DNA of 19,823 nucleotides from positions 43,565-63,387 of the forward strand of contig NVWJ01000013.1 of the NCBI GenBank assembly GCA_002746235.1, in the 5' to 3' direction. The translations under genes and the position numbers were made by a program. Position 1 is the first letter of the stretch; each line of letters starts with the position of its first letter. Positions 2,387-14,073 of the stretch are shown here, one piece after another. This DNA comes from Planctomycetota bacterium. GTDB taxonomy: Bacteria > Planctomycetota > UBA1135. A model generated the notes under the pieces. That model was not told the origin of the DNA, did not search any database, and was given only the letters and a program-made list of their open reading frames with translations.

Positions 2387-3241
2387 ATGAAAACCACTTT
2401 ACTGATTGGTCCAGGACGCGTGGGGCGAAGCCTCGCATTGGCACATAAGAAGGCCGGCGAAGAGGTCTATTTGTTGGGTACCGATACCGGCGCATGGATG
2501 GATTGGGCAGCGGATAACGGCATTCATACGCTGGTCGATCCAGCTGGCGCGCCCAAGCAGGCCGACGTTATCCTATTCTGCGTTCCAGATGCATCGATTC
2601 TTCCAGTCGCGCAAAAATTTGCCGCTCACTTTCACTGCAACTCGAAGCTGTTCATCCACACCAGCGGCTTGCATGACATCGAAGTGCTGAAGCCGATTAG
2701 TTTGGAAGGCGGATTTGTAGCGGCCATGCACCCGGTCATGCAGTTTGTCGATCCAGAGCGCGATATCGAAACTTTGCGCTTAGCTTTGGTGACTGAAACC
2801 GCCGACCCGAATGCGCGCGAAGGCGTTTTGGAAGTCGCGGAGGTCTGGGGAGCACAGCCAGTGCGCTTGAAGGCGGGCATCGATCGACGGCGCTACCACC
2901 TAGGTTTGGCCTTGGCGTCGAATCACATCACTGCACTATGCGCCTGGTCAGCCGAGTTGTTGGAGCCGGTGTTCCGCGAACAAACTTGGGATGTGGTGGA
3001 GCGTATGGCGAGCCAGGCTATGCATTCGGCGCACCAAGATGGAGCTTCCAACGCACTGACTGGCGCGGTGGTTCGCGGGGACATTTCTACTGTGGAAGGA
3101 CATCTGCAGAGTTTGAGTGAACGAGAAAAACATCGTTATGCCGGCTTGCTGGATTTAGTGGTGGACCTGGCGGAACAAAGTCAGCGTTTGCCTCATGAAA
3201 CGGCGGACCGCATGCGTGCGATTGCCAAAGACGCCCGTTAA
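2387..3241 (+). CDS. Rossmann-fold oxidoreductase-like protein with DUF2520 domain
   Basis: The product has 284 residues. I chose ATG 2387 because GAGGA lies six bases upstream (2376-2380), the start follows the ispE stop by two bases, and the protein then opens with the nucleotide-binding strand MKTTLLIGPGRVGRSLA (GxGxxG at 8-13). A longer frame exists but would run deep into ispE. An FCVPDASI segment follows, then a conserved HTSGLHD...MHP region typical of the ProC/6-phosphogluconate-like family with a C-terminal DUF2520 helical domain. NAD(P) binding is strongly implied; the substrate is unknown. In Mycobacterium tuberculosis, as I recall, a DUF2520 gene also sits between panC and folK, so a role in pantothenate or folate metabolism is a reasonable inference, not a demonstration. 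Confidence 0.88.
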   Translation: MKTTLLIGPGRVGRSLALAHKKAGEEVYLLGTDTGAWMDWAADNGIHTLVDPAGAPKQADVILFCVPDASILPVAQKFAAHFHCNSKLFIHTSGLHDIEVLKPISLEGGFVAAMHPVMQFVDPERDIETLRLALVTETADPNAREGVLEVAEVWGAQPVRLKAGIDRRRYHLGLALASNHITALCAWSAELLEPVFREQTWDVVERMASQAMHSAHQDGASNALTGAVVRGDISTVEGHLQSLSEREKHRYAGLLDLVVDLAEQSQRLPHETADRMRAIAKDAR

Positions 3242-3257
3242 TCGCGGTTTCTGGTCA

Positions 3258-5204
3258 GTGAAGGCGTCGTCGCGGATTCTGGTTTCCTTGCTTGCAGGAG
3301 AAGAATCGCGTTTGCGCGCGCGCTTGGATTGGCTGCATGGTCGCGTCGGCAAAGTGGAGTTGCGCTTGGACTCTTTGGCGGACGATGTCGACCTCACCCG
3401 TTTGCGCGCGGACTATCCGCAGTTGGAATGGTATGCCGCATGTCGCAGGGTGCCTGAAAACGAATCGCGCACCAACCGATTAATGCGCGCGGCCGCTGCC
3501 GGTTTTGATGGCGTCGATTTTCCGGTGGAAGATGGCGTGGCGCCGAAAGTGCCGGAAGGTGTTGTTCGGATTCATAGCTGGCATCAAGAGTCTGCGGACG
3601 GCACCGACCTTCATGCCGTGTTGCAAGATTTACAGGCACGGGTTTCTGGCAATGACTTGATGAAGATCGTTGCATGGGCAGACTTTGCGGAACAGGCTTG
3701 GCCAGTTTTGGATTTGTACTCCCACGTGCCTGAAAAACCTTCCTTGCTGGCCTTTGCACAAGGCATGGGTGGAGGAGCATCGCGCCTTTTGGCACTCCGC
3801 TGTGGAGCGCCGTGGATTTATTCCAGTTGGCCCGGTGAAGCCACTGCACCCGGACAGTGGAATGTGGTGGAGCTATTGCGCATGTTGCCTAGTGCCCTCG
3901 ATTCAAAAACTCCCGCATTAGGAGTGCTTGGGCATCCGGTATTGCACAGCTTGAGTCCTTTGCTGTGGCAATCGGCCATGGCGGAGGGAAGCGGCCATCC
4001 TTCAGGCTTGTACACGCCGTATCCAGTGAAGGATTTGCCTACCTTTCTAAACGGCGCCGTGCGTCACGGAGTCACCAGTTTTTCAGTCACCGCACCGCAT
4101 AAGCAAGCAGCCTTTCAACTCGCCACACCACTCGATGGCGCACTCGGCGAAGCGGCATCGGCATGTGAAGCAGCGAACCTATTGGTGCAGAAAAACGGCG
4201 CGTGGTTTTGCGGCAATAGCGACGGCGTCGGCGCGATGGATGCCTTGGGTGTGGAAGACGCAACCCCAGAGGATTCCAAACACTTACTCATTCTTGGCTC
4301 CGGCGGAGCATCGAGTGCCGTGCAAGTCGAAGCCCGACGACGCGGATGGCAAGTGACCGCCACCCAGCGCAAGGATCTAGGCAGCATCCAGCCTTCCGAG
4401 TTTGATGCCGTCATCCAGGCCACTCCAGTTGGCAGTGTCGCGCATCCAGGAAAACTCACTGCCGGACGTCCACCAAGTCCCGGCACGCCCAGCCTCGACA
4501 TGGTGTATCACCCACTGCAAACCGAGTGGTTGCGCCAAGCCGAAACCGCTGGCGCGCGTGCCATCCAGGGAACCCAAATGTTGCTGCATCAAATGATCGC
4601 GCAATATGCCGAGGTCTTCCCAGACGCCTTGCCAGCCAACTCGATCGTGCTGCAACAAGTTCTGCAGCAACATCTCCACGACCGTGCAGCCATAGTGCTC
4701 CTCGGTGCACGTGCCAGCGGAAAATCGACCCTCGGCCGCGCCCTTGCCGAGGCGCTGCAGTGGAATTTCCAAGATGCTGACTTAGTCCTCGAACAACAAT
4801 CCGCACGCAGCATTGCCGATTGGATTGCCGTCGACCCCGAAGGATTCCGTGATTTCGAAGCCGAAATCCTCAGTCAGCTTTTGAGCGAACCCTTCACGGT
4901 GATTGCAACTGGCGGGGGAGTGGTGGAACGCACATCCTCCGTTGCTCAACTGGAAGCTCATTCTCGCGTTGTATGGTTGCAATGCAGTGCCGACGAACTT
5001 TTGCGTCGCCAAACAGCGGAGCCGCGCCCGGCCTTGACTGCTCTCGACTTAGCCGAGGAAATCAAAACGCTTTTAACCCGGCGCGATCCGGCTTATGAGA
5101 AGGCATCGTCCTTAGTGGTTTCTACCAACGAAACCGTCGCATCCGCCGTAATGAAAGTACTTTTGCATTTTGAATTGAAAGGATTCGTGCAAGGATTCCG
5201 ATAA
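3258..5204 (+). CDS. aroDEK: Trifunctional 3-dehydroquinate dehydratase / shikimate dehydrogenase / shikimate kinase fusion
   Basis: One frame encodes three consecutive shikimate-pathway domains (648 residues from GTG 3258). Residues 1-195 are a type I dehydroquinate dehydratase, with SWHQE (His109), LMKIV (Schiff-base Lys136) and ASRLL (Arg176). Residues 219-455 are AroE, with GVLGHPVLHSLSP (222-234), SVTAPHK (Lys282), GNSDGVG (Asp322), the NADP loop LGSGGAS (346-352), DMVYHP and GTQMLLHQ. Residues 475-640 are shikimate kinase, with P-loop GARASGKST (483-491), DAD (506-508), FRDFE (530-534), GGG (552-554) and RP (590-591). GTG 3258 begins just before the first beta strand and clears the upstream gene by 16 bases. 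ATG 3195 is an alternative but adds 21 non-family residues and overlaps DUF2520 by 47 bases. It would convert dehydroquinate to shikimate 3-phosphate in one polypeptide. Confidence 0.95.
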   Translation: MKASSRILVSLLAGEESRLRARLDWLHGRVGKVELRLDSLADDVDLTRLRADYPQLEWYAACRRVPENESRTNRLMRAAAAGFDGVDFPVEDGVAPKVPEGVVRIHSWHQESADGTDLHAVLQDLQARVSGNDLMKIVAWADFAEQAWPVLDLYSHVPEKPSLLAFAQGMGGGASRLLALRCGAPWIYSSWPGEATAPGQWNVVELLRMLPSALDSKTPALGVLGHPVLHSLSPLLWQSAMAEGSGHPSGLYTPYPVKDLPTFLNGAVRHGVTSFSVTAPHKQAAFQLATPLDGALGEAASACEAANLLVQKNGAWFCGNSDGVGAMDALGVEDATPEDSKHLLILGSGGASSAVQVEARRRGWQVTATQRKDLGSIQPSEFDAVIQATPVGSVAHPGKLTAGRPPSPGTPSLDMVYHPLQTEWLRQAETAGARAIQGTQMLLHQMIAQYAEVFPDALPANSIVLQQVLQQHLHDRAAIVLLGARASGKSTLGRALAEALQWNFQDADLVLEQQSARSIADWIAVDPEGFRDFEAEILSQLLSEPFTVIATGGGVVERTSSVAQLEAHSRVVWLQCSADELLRRQTAEPRPALTALDLAEEIKTLLTRRDPAYEKASSLVVSTNETVASAVMKVLLHFELKGFVQGFR

Positions 5205-9612: not shown

Positions 9613-11310
9613 ATGACTATCCTCGGTACAATTCTCTTTCTGCTTGCCACTCCGGCTTCCGCGCAAACCGTCGGCGGCGGTTTCGAGCAGCTCCATCAAT
9701 TGGCCGACGGTTCTGCTCATAGCCACTCCGCCCTCTCCGTCTCAGGTGCAGGAGATGTGAACGGTGATGGTTTTGCCGATCTGATTGTAGGAGCAAACCT
9801 AGACGACCCCGGAGGTCTGCATGATGCCGGCTCGGCCTATGTCTATTCGGGCGCGGACGGTTCGCTGCTCCATCAATTGGATGGCGGGGCTGCTGAGGAC
9901 TTCTTCGGCTGGACCGTCTCGGGTGCAGGAGATGTGAATGGTGATGGTTTTGCCGATGTGATTGTGGGGGCAAGAGCAGCCGCCCCCGGAGGTCTGCATA
10001 GAGCCGGCTCGGCCTATGTCTATTCCGGCGCGGACGGCTCGCTGCTCCATCAATGGGACGGCGGGGCTGCTATTGACTTATTCGGTTCCTCCGTCTCGGG
10101 TGCAGGAGATGTCAATAGTGATGGCTTCGCCGATGTGATTGTGGGCGCGTTCGCAGCCGACCCTGGAAGTCTGTCGCAGGCAGGCTCGGCCTATGTCTAT
10201 TCCGGCGTCAATGGCTCGCTGCTCTATCAATGGGATGGCGGGGCTTCTGGTGACCGCTTTGGCGACTCCGTCTCGGACGCAGGAGATGTGAATGGTGATG
10301 GTTTTGCCGATGTGATTGTGGGCGCGGGCTCTGCCGCCCCCGGAGGTCTGGTGGAAGCCGGCTCGGCCTATGTCTATTCCGGCGCGGATGGCTCGCTGCT
10401 CCATCAATGGGACGGCGGGACTCCTGGAGATCGCCTCGGTTCCTCCGTCTCGGGCGCAGGAGATGTCAACGGTGATGGTTCTGTCGATGTGATTGTGGGG
10501 GCGGACTTGGCCAGCCCCGGAGGTCTGGGGGCAGCCGGCTCGGCCTATGTCTATTCCGGCGCGGACGGCTCGCTGCTCCGACAATGGGACGGCGGGACTA
10601 CTGGGGATCGCTTCGGTTCCTCCGTCTCGGGTGCAGGAGATGTCAATGGTGATGGTTTTGCCGATCTGATTGTAGGAGCAAGCCTAGCCGACCCCGGAGG
10701 TCTGTTGAGTGCCGGCTCGGCCTACGTCTATTCCGGCGCGGACGGCTCGCTGCTCCAACAATGGGACGGCGAGGCTCTTTGGGACGCCTTCGGTTCCTCC
10801 GTCTCGGGTGCAGGAGATGTGAATGGTGATGGTTTTGCCGATGTGATTGTGGGGGTGCCCTATGTCGACGCCGGAGGTCGTGAGCATTCCGGCTCGGCCT
10901 ACGTCTACAGCTTCCATCCTTTCCTCCAGGCAAACACTCCGACCATCTCGGCATCCACCGGTGGCGTACTCGACCTGACCCTCGACTTCCCCGACAGCGC
11001 CGCCTTCCATGAATACATCACCCTGATGTCCATTCAGGGAACCGGCCCCATCGACTACGGCGTCGACATCCCGCTCACCCTCGACGGCTACCTGCTCGAC
11101 AGTGTTGCAGGGATTTACCCCTTCACGATTACGTCCGATCTGCACGGAACTCTCGATGCCTCGGGCAACGCAACTGCGGATATCACCTTCCCTGCCGGGG
11201 TATTCAACTTTGCGATTGGCCGCACCTTCTGGCTGGCGGCAGTCTCATTTCCGACCGGCCAACTTCCAGCGCACAGTTCCGTGGCAGTGGCGATTGAGAT
11301 TGTGCTCTGA
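9613..11310 (+). CDS. Secreted FG-GAP repeat beta-propeller protein
   Basis: The product has 565 residues. A signal peptide covers residues 1-17 (MTILGTILFLLATPASA, cleavage ASA|Q). Seven FG-GAP repeats of 59 residues follow (about 30-437), each with the Ca-binding-like loop GDVNGDGFAD, the strand VIVGA, a PGGL turn and SAYVYSGADGSLL. Seven repeats suit an integrin-alpha-like seven-blade propeller. The final 128 residues or so (438-565) are a separate beta-rich domain. FG-GAP propellers usually bind ligands or surfaces outside the cell, and the actual partner is unknown. One repeat carries NSDG instead of NGDG, and another has GSVD in place of GFAD. The gene lies in the accessory segment, 106 bases before the putative selenoprotein. 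Confidence 0.93.
   Translation: MTILGTILFLLATPASAQTVGGGFEQLHQLADGSAHSHSALSVSGAGDVNGDGFADLIVGANLDDPGGLHDAGSAYVYSGADGSLLHQLDGGAAEDFFGWTVSGAGDVNGDGFADVIVGARAAAPGGLHRAGSAYVYSGADGSLLHQWDGGAAIDLFGSSVSGAGDVNSDGFADVIVGAFAADPGSLSQAGSAYVYSGVNGSLLYQWDGGASGDRFGDSVSDAGDVNGDGFADVIVGAGSAAPGGLVEAGSAYVYSGADGSLLHQWDGGTPGDRLGSSVSGAGDVNGDGSVDVIVGADLASPGGLGAAGSAYVYSGADGSLLRQWDGGTTGDRFGSSVSGAGDVNGDGFADLIVGASLADPGGLLSAGSAYVYSGADGSLLQQWDGEALWDAFGSSVSGAGDVNGDGFADVIVGVPYVDAGGREHSGSAYVYSFHPFLQANTPTISASTGGVLDLTLDFPDSAAFHEYITLMSIQGTGPIDYGVDIPLTLDGYLLDSVAGIYPFTITSDLHGTLDASGNATADITFPAGVFNFAIGRTFWLAAVSFPTGQLPAHSSVAVAIEIVL
9703..10917 (+). repeat. Seven tandem 177-bp coding repeats
   Basis: The FG-GAP units recur in the DNA with a period of exactly 177 bases (for example the GATGTGAA.GGTGATGG motif near 9754 and 9931). 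The copies are near-identical in their core and variable only at the blade edges. That points to recent amplification or gene conversion and a likely capacity for copy-number change. The repeats also generate long antisense ORFs that are not genes. Confidence 0.9.
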
Positions 11311-11416: not shown

Positions 11417-12490
11417 ATGAGATCTTCCTTGAACCTGCGAAGCCCCATCTCGATGATCATCCTAGGCTTGAGCTGCGTAGCCAACTGCGTGGCCCAGGAG
11501 CTTCCGAGGCAGCCTGATCGGCGGTCTGGCCCACCACACCCCGAGGTCACTGTTGACTGGTCCAAGATTCAGCAGCGCATCGCCTGGTTCGGGACGATGT
11601 CATCAGCCAAGGCCGCAGCTAAGGAGACCGGTCGCCCAATCCTCTTGGTCTCTGGGCAACCTTCCTGTCAGGCAGTTCCAGGAGTTTGGTGACCTGGAAA
11701 GCAATTGATGGACAGGAGTTACCTGTCCGCCTCTGAAGTCATCGAAGCCTCGAGGAGTTTCGTTTGTGTACGCCTGGTTACTTTCGAAGATGTGGAGGAG
11801 ATGAAGTTTATGAACTCCATCTATGACTTCCGAACCCCAACCAAGAACTCTCTATTCGCAATCCTGGATCCTTCCGCTAAGGAACATTTGGTCAAGCCCG
11901 GCCGATCCATGGAGTTCACCTTCGATGACGCGGCACAAATGGCGGCCAAGATGGAGGAGATTGCCAAGAGCTACCCCGGACCGGACGACGTGGATCCCGC
12001 CAAGCTCGGCATGCCCTACCTAAAGGATGTCCGATTGGCTCTAAATGTTGCTGCTTGCGACACTCAAAGCCTGATCATCCTCTACGCACCCAAAGTGAAG
12101 GACCATCGCAAACTCGAATCCCTTCTGTTGCCACTTGCTTGGCATAAGGACTTGATGGGTGAGTTTCTTTTCGTAGCTACCGACAAGCTCGCCGACCTAG
12201 CCAAGATTTCGGAGACCGGCATTGCGCCGGGCCTTTTGGTGGTCACGCCGGGAACCTATGGCCTTGAAGGACGTCAGGTCGCATTCGTTCCACTGAGTGC
12301 GAAGGCCAGCGATGCACATGCAATCCTAGTTGCTGCAGCCGAAGCCAACCGCCTCGGATCGAAGGATTCAAAACGCCACATCGGTCGCGGCCGACGGGAA
12401 GGCGTGAAGTGGGAGCCCGTGCTCGAAGACCCGGGCCCCGTCCGGAATCGTCGCTCGCGACAAGAGAGCTACGGCAGTGACACCGACTGA
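11417..12490 (+). CDS. Putative secreted thioredoxin-fold selenoprotein (in-frame UGA at codon 92)
   Basis: A single frame runs from ATG 11417 to TGA 12490 (357 residues) and is broken only by TGA 11690-11692. Both halves are in the same phase, so no frameshift is involved. Residues 1-27 are a signal peptide (hydrophobic ISMIILGLSCVANCVA, cleavage CVA|Q). A thioredoxin-like first half follows: KAAAKETGRPILLVSGQPSC ends at Cys84, then QAVPGVW and the UGA at 92, then PGKQLMDRSYLSASEVIEAS and SFVCVRLVTFEDVEE, the usual post-active-site helix and strand. A second alpha/beta part (about 200-300) and a basic tail complete it. A hairpin matching the bacterial SECIS description follows the UGA. Cys84 and Sec92 would form the redox pair. 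The alternative is a pseudogene split by a nonsense mutation. Reinitiation at TTG 11705 or ATG 11708 seems less likely because it would discard the signal peptide and the active site. Confidence 0.7.
11690..11728 (+). promoter_or_regulatory. UGA codon with candidate bacterial SECIS hairpin
   Basis: UGA lies at 11690-11692. A perfect 7-bp stem, GGACAGG (11710-11716) with CCTGTCC (11722-11728), closes a 5-base loop AGTTA (11717-11721). The loop begins 24 bases after the UGA and has G as its second base. As I recall the bacterial SECIS model, it asks for a 16-37 base gap, a stem of at least 4 bp and a G within the first two loop bases. All three are met. Confidence 0.62.
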
Positions 12491-13293: not shown

Positions 13294-14073
13294 ATGAACC
13301 AACGAATTCTCTGGAGACTTAGCGGTCTTGCTTTTCTTGCCCTCGTGTTGTGGGGGCCGGTGTTCGCGACAGTGTTTGAATTAGTCAATCCGAATCCGGA
13401 CCAACTAACCGTCTACCTTTTAAACAAGGGACTATTTGCCGTCGCTCTTCTATGCGTGCTCGCGAAATGGAATGGCCTGCGCGGCTACGGATTCAAGCGC
13501 GGACGGAGTTGGTGGTTCCTGCTCCCGGGTGCGCCAATCCTGCTTCTGACGGCACTGGTAGGCATGAGCCCGGAATCGCAGTACGGACTAAGCATGGCGG
13601 CTGCCCTGGGCTGGATTCTAGTCTCAATCTTTGTCGCCATCGGTGAGGAAGGTTTGTTCCGCGGCTTGCTGTGGCGTGCGCTGGAGAAGCGGGGCATGTT
13701 GACTACCAGTTTGCTGACCTCGGTGCTGTTCGGTGCCGCGCATCTGCTGGGCCTGTTCACCTCGATCCCATGGGAGATCGTCGCCAGCCAGGCCGTCTTC
13801 GCCACGGGCGGAGCCATGATGTTCGCCGCGGTCAGGCTGGTTTCCGGTTCACTGCTTGGACCGATTTGTTTGCATGCGCTGTTCGATTCCGCAGCCATCC
13901 TTGCAGCCGGCGGAGTCCAGGAAATGTTCGAGGACACCATGACCGTCGGACGCCTCCTCATTCCAGGCGTTGTTTTCTTTATCTGGGGGCTGGTCTGCGT
14001 CCTGGTGATTCGACGACGGCGTCGGACCACTAAGGCCAGGTCGTCTGCCACCGAAGTGGCGCAACACGCGTGA
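13294..14073 (+). CDS. CPBP-family intramembrane glutamic endopeptidase
   Basis: This 259-residue polytopic membrane protein has about seven or eight hydrophobic segments and an Arg-rich C-terminal tail. The family motifs are present: GEEGLFRGLLW (EExxxR, about residues 116-126), FGAAHLLGLF (second motif with His) and LHALFDS (third motif with His and Asp). CPBP proteases relate to the eukaryotic CAAX protease Rce1 and, in bacteria, often process peptides or confer bacteriocin immunity. The substrate here cannot be told. A good ribosome-binding site precedes the ATG. Transcription starts from a promoter covered by two TetR-type operators, so expression is probably inducible. It is the last gene before the right-hand direct repeat. 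Confidence 0.93.
   Translation: MNQRILWRLSGLAFLALVLWGPVFATVFELVNPNPDQLTVYLLNKGLFAVALLCVLAKWNGLRGYGFKRGRSWWFLLPGAPILLLTALVGMSPESQYGLSMAAALGWILVSIFVAIGEEGLFRGLLWRALEKRGMLTTSLLTSVLFGAAHLLGLFTSIPWEIVASQAVFATGGAMMFAAVRLVSGSLLGPICLHALFDSAAILAAGGVQEMFEDTMTVGRLLIPGVVFFIWGLVCVLVIRRRRRTTKARSSATEVAQHA

Follow-up and report, generated by a model that had tools for sequence, protein, structure and literature searches.

A planctomycete gene, located on the forward strand at positions 11417-12490 of a 19,823-nucleotide stretch of DNA (hereafter, the window), would encode an exported selenoprotein of 357 residues with two thioredoxin folds in tandem, and its in-frame UGA codon (11690-11692) is very probably decoded as selenocysteine (Sec) at residue 92. 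The original prediction, which saw here a candidate selenoprotein with UGA at its redox site, is borne out by the conservation of a UGA or Cys codon at that site, by the presence of the Sec machinery in the same genome and by a covarying hairpin downstream of the codon.

The in-frame UGA and its conservation

On translation, the frame 11417-12490 is open save for one internal TGA, preceded by 91 codons and followed by 265, and it terminates at the TGA 12488-12490. The two halves had been predicted to lie in the same phase around residue 92, and indeed the translation yields 357 residues with a single internal TGA; likewise, the high coding quality claimed for the downstream part holds for the 265 codons after the UGA, which are conserved in homologues. 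The codon was assigned to Sec92 by translation and comparison of loci, and its context in the planctomycete gene reads SCQAVPGVW-U-PGKQLMDRS, Cys84 standing eight residues ahead of residue 92.

A protein search with the UGA read through retrieved 94 database homologues. As many as 88 of them start downstream of the UGA according to a motif rule, as does P0035 when judged by eye; the other five are P0022, P0023, P0025 and P0026, which are full-length Cys forms with WCPGK, and P0075, a gene call ending in VPGVW. The latter and P0003, each listing a longest contig of 43,387 bases, may be two halves of one gene.

At the nucleotide level, 112 of the 123 fetched loci have TGA at the site, six have TGT and five TGC, with no other codon. 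These loci comprise 63 fetched with record titles and 60 from two genome searches (101 related genomes and 392 genomes of the phylum). Of the pair of search patterns used to fetch the titled loci, one spells Cys at the site and therefore favours Cys forms, and cannot have produced the Sec majority. Once repeats were removed, 85 distinct loci were retained, 74 with Sec and 11 with Cys; the residue that the original prediction proposed to look for at position 92 of homologues (Cys, in W-C-P-G) is thus present, as WCPGK. Furthermore, a protein search of the 101 related genomes gave 36 match rows, 33 of them with TGA and all 33 at the residue-92 codon, the remaining three being a match that falls short of the site (G012), a remote thioredoxin-like protein that lacks the motif (G081) and a degraded relative with TGG (G073). 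In a profile search of the 392 genomes of the phylum, 120 gave a match at E up to 0.001, in many cases a weak one; among the listed rows above 250 bits (n = 55), 53 hold TGA and two (G151 and G406) start downstream of the site.

Around the codon, Gly89, Gly94 and Cys117 are identical in all 85 distinct loci, while Cys84 and Trp91 are each the same in 84. Residue 95 is Lys, Tyr or Phe in the 74 Sec loci and Lys in the 11 Cys loci, and no UxxC, that is, no Cys three residues after Sec, occurs in the 74 Sec loci. On these comparisons, homologues and site conservation together, a chance open frame is ruled out. Moreover, the UGA is kept across many separate assemblies, which argues against the sequencing error that the original prediction had named as grounds for refutation.

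A second copy of the family is encoded in the window's genome (G000:C20:7527-8540; L146:2028-3047). It shares 35% identity with the window protein and likewise has a TGA in frame at this site, followed downstream by a hairpin of -9.3 kcal/mol. Two further relatives show broken frames, due to either decay or assembly error: L148 (G073:C14) has TGG at the Sec codon and its frame breaks soon after, and L150 (G001:C74) keeps the UGA, the frame breaking downstream of the site.

Selenocysteine machinery and the downstream hairpin

The original prediction had pointed to selA, selB, selC and selD as genes to be sought in the same genome. We found there selA (474.9 bits), selB (over the cut-off), selD, which carries its own in-frame TGA near the N-terminus (SG-U-AAK), and a tRNA-Sec with anticodon UCA (72.9 bits). 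Among the 101 related genomes, selB, selA and selD are over the cut-off in 93, 94 and 95, respectively. In a chosen set of 20 genomes, made up of all 11 of the Cys form and of 9 of the 52 Sec-form contig loci, selA exceeds the cut-off (267.9 bits) in every one of the nine Sec-form genomes and in none of the 11 with a Cys form, of which two give weak selA matches, at 99.9 and 104.1 bits.

Other in-frame TGAs occur in the window's genome. A VPGUxxT-type selenoprotein gene (L143; G000:C21:113714-114517), at 340.3 bits and over the cut-off, has two of them, the second in a UFW context that we take to be MsrA-like. Another frame (L145; G000:C19:42611-42838) has TGA in GUFWGVE and resembles a Sec-containing methionine sulfoxide reductase A.

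Downstream of the UGA 11690-11692, on the same strand, lies a bSECIS-like hairpin (11710-11728; GGACAGG-AGTTA-CCTGTCC), recognised by covariation and synonymous recoding. Its 7-bp stem follows the UGA after 17 nt, and its loop, AGUUA, begins 24 nt past the UGA with G in second place. In loop G, distance and stem, it fits the bSECIS model as given in the available part of the 2026 selenoprotein catalogue, namely G in the first two loop positions, 16-37 nt from the UGA, and a stable stem (PMC13188914).

In an alignment of 74 Sec sequences (73 distinct, 511 cells), the hairpin positions pair in 94.1% of the cells, compared with 33.1-54.8% in a control with partners slid by 1-3 columns; 45 cells are changed on both sides, versus 8.6 in shuffles, and compensatory double changes are seen in five of the seven pairs (shuffled mean 3.0). 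In several stem columns, 4-8 of the 73 cells per pair fail to pair, which indicates a weaker stem in some relatives. Since the hairpin lies within coding sequence, each gene was also recoded with synonymous codons as a control. The Sec genes (n = 74) form 6.58 of 7 pairs against 4.12 expected, with a mean energy Z of -2.23, and the Cys genes (n = 11) 3.91 pairs against 3.31, with a Z of -0.57; a fold energy of -7.5 kcal/mol or lower is reached by 72 of 74 Sec genes versus none of the 11 Cys genes. By this control, pairing in the Sec genes is in excess of what synonymous codon choice alone would give. Folded alone, the window's own 54 nt do not stand out from dinucleotide shuffles (z -0.22), 76 of 200 of which are as good; it is comparison between sequences that supports the hairpin. 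As far as the sequences can tell, selenium itself would almost certainly be incorporated at residue 92.

Protein architecture and the redox site

Residues 1-27 (11417-11497) read by eye as a probable signal peptide, and hydrophobic N-termini ending in AQ recur among the homologues; there is good reason to expect that the protein is exported. Its predicted model (pLDDT 87.4, pTM 0.82) consists of two thioredoxin folds. The first, with the Sec site (residues 53-190; 11573-11986), also gives a match to Thioredoxin_7 (PF13899) over residues 57-125, at 19.6 bits and below the gathering cut-off of 27; the same domain is precomputed for the Cys homologues P0025 and P0026, and the domain scan of the window protein gave no match to PF00085. 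Two other homologues, P0036 and P0052, bear C-terminal EF-hand domains (PF13405, PF13202, PF00036, precomputed).

In the model, strand 75-80 leads into a loop with Cys84 (11666-11668), Sec92 stands just ahead of the active-site helix (93-103), and Cys117 (11765-11767) lies on strand 116-121. This agrees with the earlier description of a strand leading to Cys84 upstream of the codon and the rest of a thioredoxin-like fold downstream. In a weak alignment with TXNDC12 (E about 0.07), Sec92 falls on the first of the two active-site Cys residues, and Lys95 on the other. The second fold (residues 197-310; 12005-12346), delimited from the model and the sequence, lacks CxxC and would probably be a binding or structural domain, by analogy with the a-b pairs of protein disulfide isomerases.

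From these elements a mechanism can be proposed, in which SelA, SelB, SelD and tRNA-Sec of the bacterium's own genome would decode the UGA, directed by the hairpin, to give a single exported protein with its two folds in a row. Lying just ahead of the active-site helix in the first fold, Sec92 would stand in for the nucleophilic N-terminal Cys that thioredoxins have there and would attack a disulfide or a peroxide outside the cytoplasm; it would then be resolved either by an outside thiol or by Cys84, with which it would form a C-x7-U selenenylsulfide. These two routes are suggested by the replacement of the CxxC resolving Cys by Lys (Tyr in many relatives). With that Cys missing and Cys84 nearly invariant, Cys84 would be the likeliest partner, with an even chance of being the right one, and Cys117 the alternative. 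The place of Sec92, together with the export signal, points to an exported enzyme of thiol-disulfide or peroxide chemistry, which we regard as probable, and most likely to an exported thiol-disulfide oxidoreductase.

Alternative readings

The product could be a selenoprotein but act as a peroxidase or a small-molecule reductase, a possible though clearly less likely option. The CxxC resolving Cys is absent, and Sec without CxxC is usual in peroxidases; on the other side, the first fold aligns best, in structural terms, with the C-terminal domain of DsbD, with DsbH and with PDI-like proteins, even if the fold leaves the reaction unsettled. As a reference, the motif given for GPX in the available part of the catalogue is UxxT (PMC13188914). 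A thiol-disulfide oxidoreductase is the reading that we prefer.

It is improbable that the gene is a diverged member of a named family, either Trx7/PDZ (NF041199) or VPGUxxT (NF041383 and NF041382). When the 72 aligned members, which include fragments without the first fold, were scanned singly against NCBIfam, the only matches had E values of 0.0001-0.01 and 3.9e-5 (Trx7/PDZ, VPGUxxT types 1 and 2, TsoB and two unrelated families), and the ten of these with bit scores fell far below the cut-offs. At E up to 0.01, the first fold matches NF041199 in 14 members, NF041383 in five and NF041382 in two. Nevertheless, the scores seen are 10.8-18.3 bits against a cut-off of 300 for NF041199, 15.9 against 275 for NF041383 (for whose best member, at E 3.9e-5, the bits are not among the scores compared) and 17.1 against 350 for NF041382. 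Furthermore, Sec lies two residues past VPG instead of adjacent to it, the Gly three residues before the site in all 85 distinct loci leaves no CxxU, the domain scan found no PDZ in the window protein, and the same genome has the separate VPGUxxT gene mentioned above. A family apart from these is therefore favoured.

As for the codon itself, its reading as Trp or another residue, through a changed code or general readthrough, is very improbable: a Trp adjoins the site and the degraded relative has TGG, but the window genes 3-662, 9613-11310 and 13294-14073 all end in TGA, TGA alternates with Cys codons in relatives, and the Sec machinery and the hairpin are present. It is scarcely conceivable that a Cys-type gene acquired this TGA by nonsense mutation or through a wrong base call; the genome is indeed a draft (26 contigs, 87.64% complete) with ambiguous bases in its other contigs, and one relative (G073) and one G001 copy do look broken, but the TGA stands at the same codon in 74 of the 85 distinct loci, with Cys in the other 11, the 265 downstream codons are conserved and the hairpin covaries. 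Equally far-fetched would be two genes, one ending at the UGA and the next starting at ATG 11708 (MDRSYLS...), where database gene calls begin in most of the 94 homologues: that codon is ATG in just 30 of the 74 distinct Sec loci and in none of the 11 Cys loci, the Cys forms are single open frames, and the split would sever the thioredoxin fold of the predicted model at its active site. Site conservation, single-frame Cys forms, TGA stops and the hairpin led us to reject these three readings of the codon and to retain selenocysteine.

Distribution, evolution and genomic context

According to record titles, Sec forms occur in Planctomycetota, Verrucomicrobiota and Melainabacteria/Cyanobacteriota, and Cys forms in Planctomycetota and Armatimonadota. 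The gene is also present in the record titled Planctomycetes bacterium Pla163 (L108), a cultured member of the group. In a quick tree the Sec/Cys label changes once: the 11 Cys rows cluster, with support, with one Sec row (L030), and these 12 are surrounded by Sec rows; the branch parting Cys from Sec has a support of 57 and the root is a midpoint one, so that a single Sec-to-Cys change is suggested, not shown. The family could be an uncatalogued one of exported tandem-thioredoxin selenoproteins, with a C-x7-U couple across a loop insertion in place of CxxC, in which Sec would be ancestral and the Cys form would have arisen once inside the Sec radiation, in lineages now without Sec machinery; taken as a whole, we hold this scenario to be evenly poised. 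The second fold, the missing CxxC resolving Cys, the lack of a full-scoring selA in the Cys-form genomes examined and the hairpin did not figure in the original prediction.

The genomic neighbourhood was explored by clustering ORFs of at least 100 residues from 63 loci and part of the window, considering families present in at least six loci and setting aside the gene itself and opposite-strand overlaps. Only one neighbour family recurs (10 loci, on either strand), from which no partner or substrate can be inferred. In the window, an FG-GAP repeat protein is encoded just upstream of the selenoprotein gene (9613-11310, forward strand), and a 669-residue fusion of type I 3-dehydroquinase, the substrate-binding domain of shikimate dehydrogenase and shikimate kinase lies at 3195-5204, also on the forward strand.

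Beyond this particular gene, it is worth stressing that gene callers cut members of the family in two at the active site. The family lends itself well to the question of what Sec can achieve and Cys cannot, and, with the resolving Cys of CxxC missing, the proposed C-x7-U couple can be put to a direct test.

Relationship to known systems

Neither the window protein nor four homologues scanned alongside qualified for any NCBIfam model. A profile search with the family alignment gave nothing at E up to 0.1 among solved structures, nor was anything found among phage protein families, and no close full-length structure stands among the matches listed. No fitting entry was found in the accessible portion of the 119-family catalogue of 2026 (PMC13188914), nor was the family found described within the portions of the literature compared (PMC13188914, PMC12013277, PMC4807772, PMC9312934, PMC2398784); an earlier mention is possible in Table S9 of PMC4807772, a source available in part, which gives the selenoprotein candidates of two planctomycetes. 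The hypothetical selenoprotein GOS_A, as it appears in the accessible part of its description, counts 2 Sec and 155 Cys sequences (PMC2398784), a balance opposite to that of the Sec-rich family described here.

Among the named selenoprotein families, Trx7/PDZ (NF041199) shares with the window protein a Thioredoxin_7-like first domain and the use of Sec, and there is a weak profile match over residues 56-127. It differs in that the window protein reaches 16.5 bits against the cut-off of 300, has C-x7-U and lacks PDZ, the motif of NF041199 being given as CxxU in the part of the catalogue at hand (PMC13188914). The VPGUxxT families have in common with it a thioredoxin-like first fold and a VPG element before Sec. 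Unlike them, the window protein places Sec as VPG-x-W-U, with a longer loop before the helix; the second half of the VPGUxxT gene of the same genome (L143) is different, and the window protein has no match to NF041383 or NF041382 at E up to 1.

In structural terms, the C-terminal domain of DsbD and DsbH are 15-16% identical to the window protein over the fold, from which the latter is distinguished by the absence of CxxC, by Sec in place of the first Cys and by an extra thioredoxin fold. Tandem-thioredoxin PDIs, ERp44 and a QSOX fragment resemble it in their pair of consecutive thioredoxin folds (Foldseek E from 6e-5), but identities are of about 8-17%, the domains are not co-superposed (rmsd about 14-22 angstrom), and the window protein is bacterial and carries Sec. 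Proteins of the TXNDC12/AGR2 type differ in having CxxC or related sites in a single domain and in being eukaryotic. By these tests the family would be new, yet what it represents is a thioredoxin-fold bacterial selenoprotein, with an unusual redox site.
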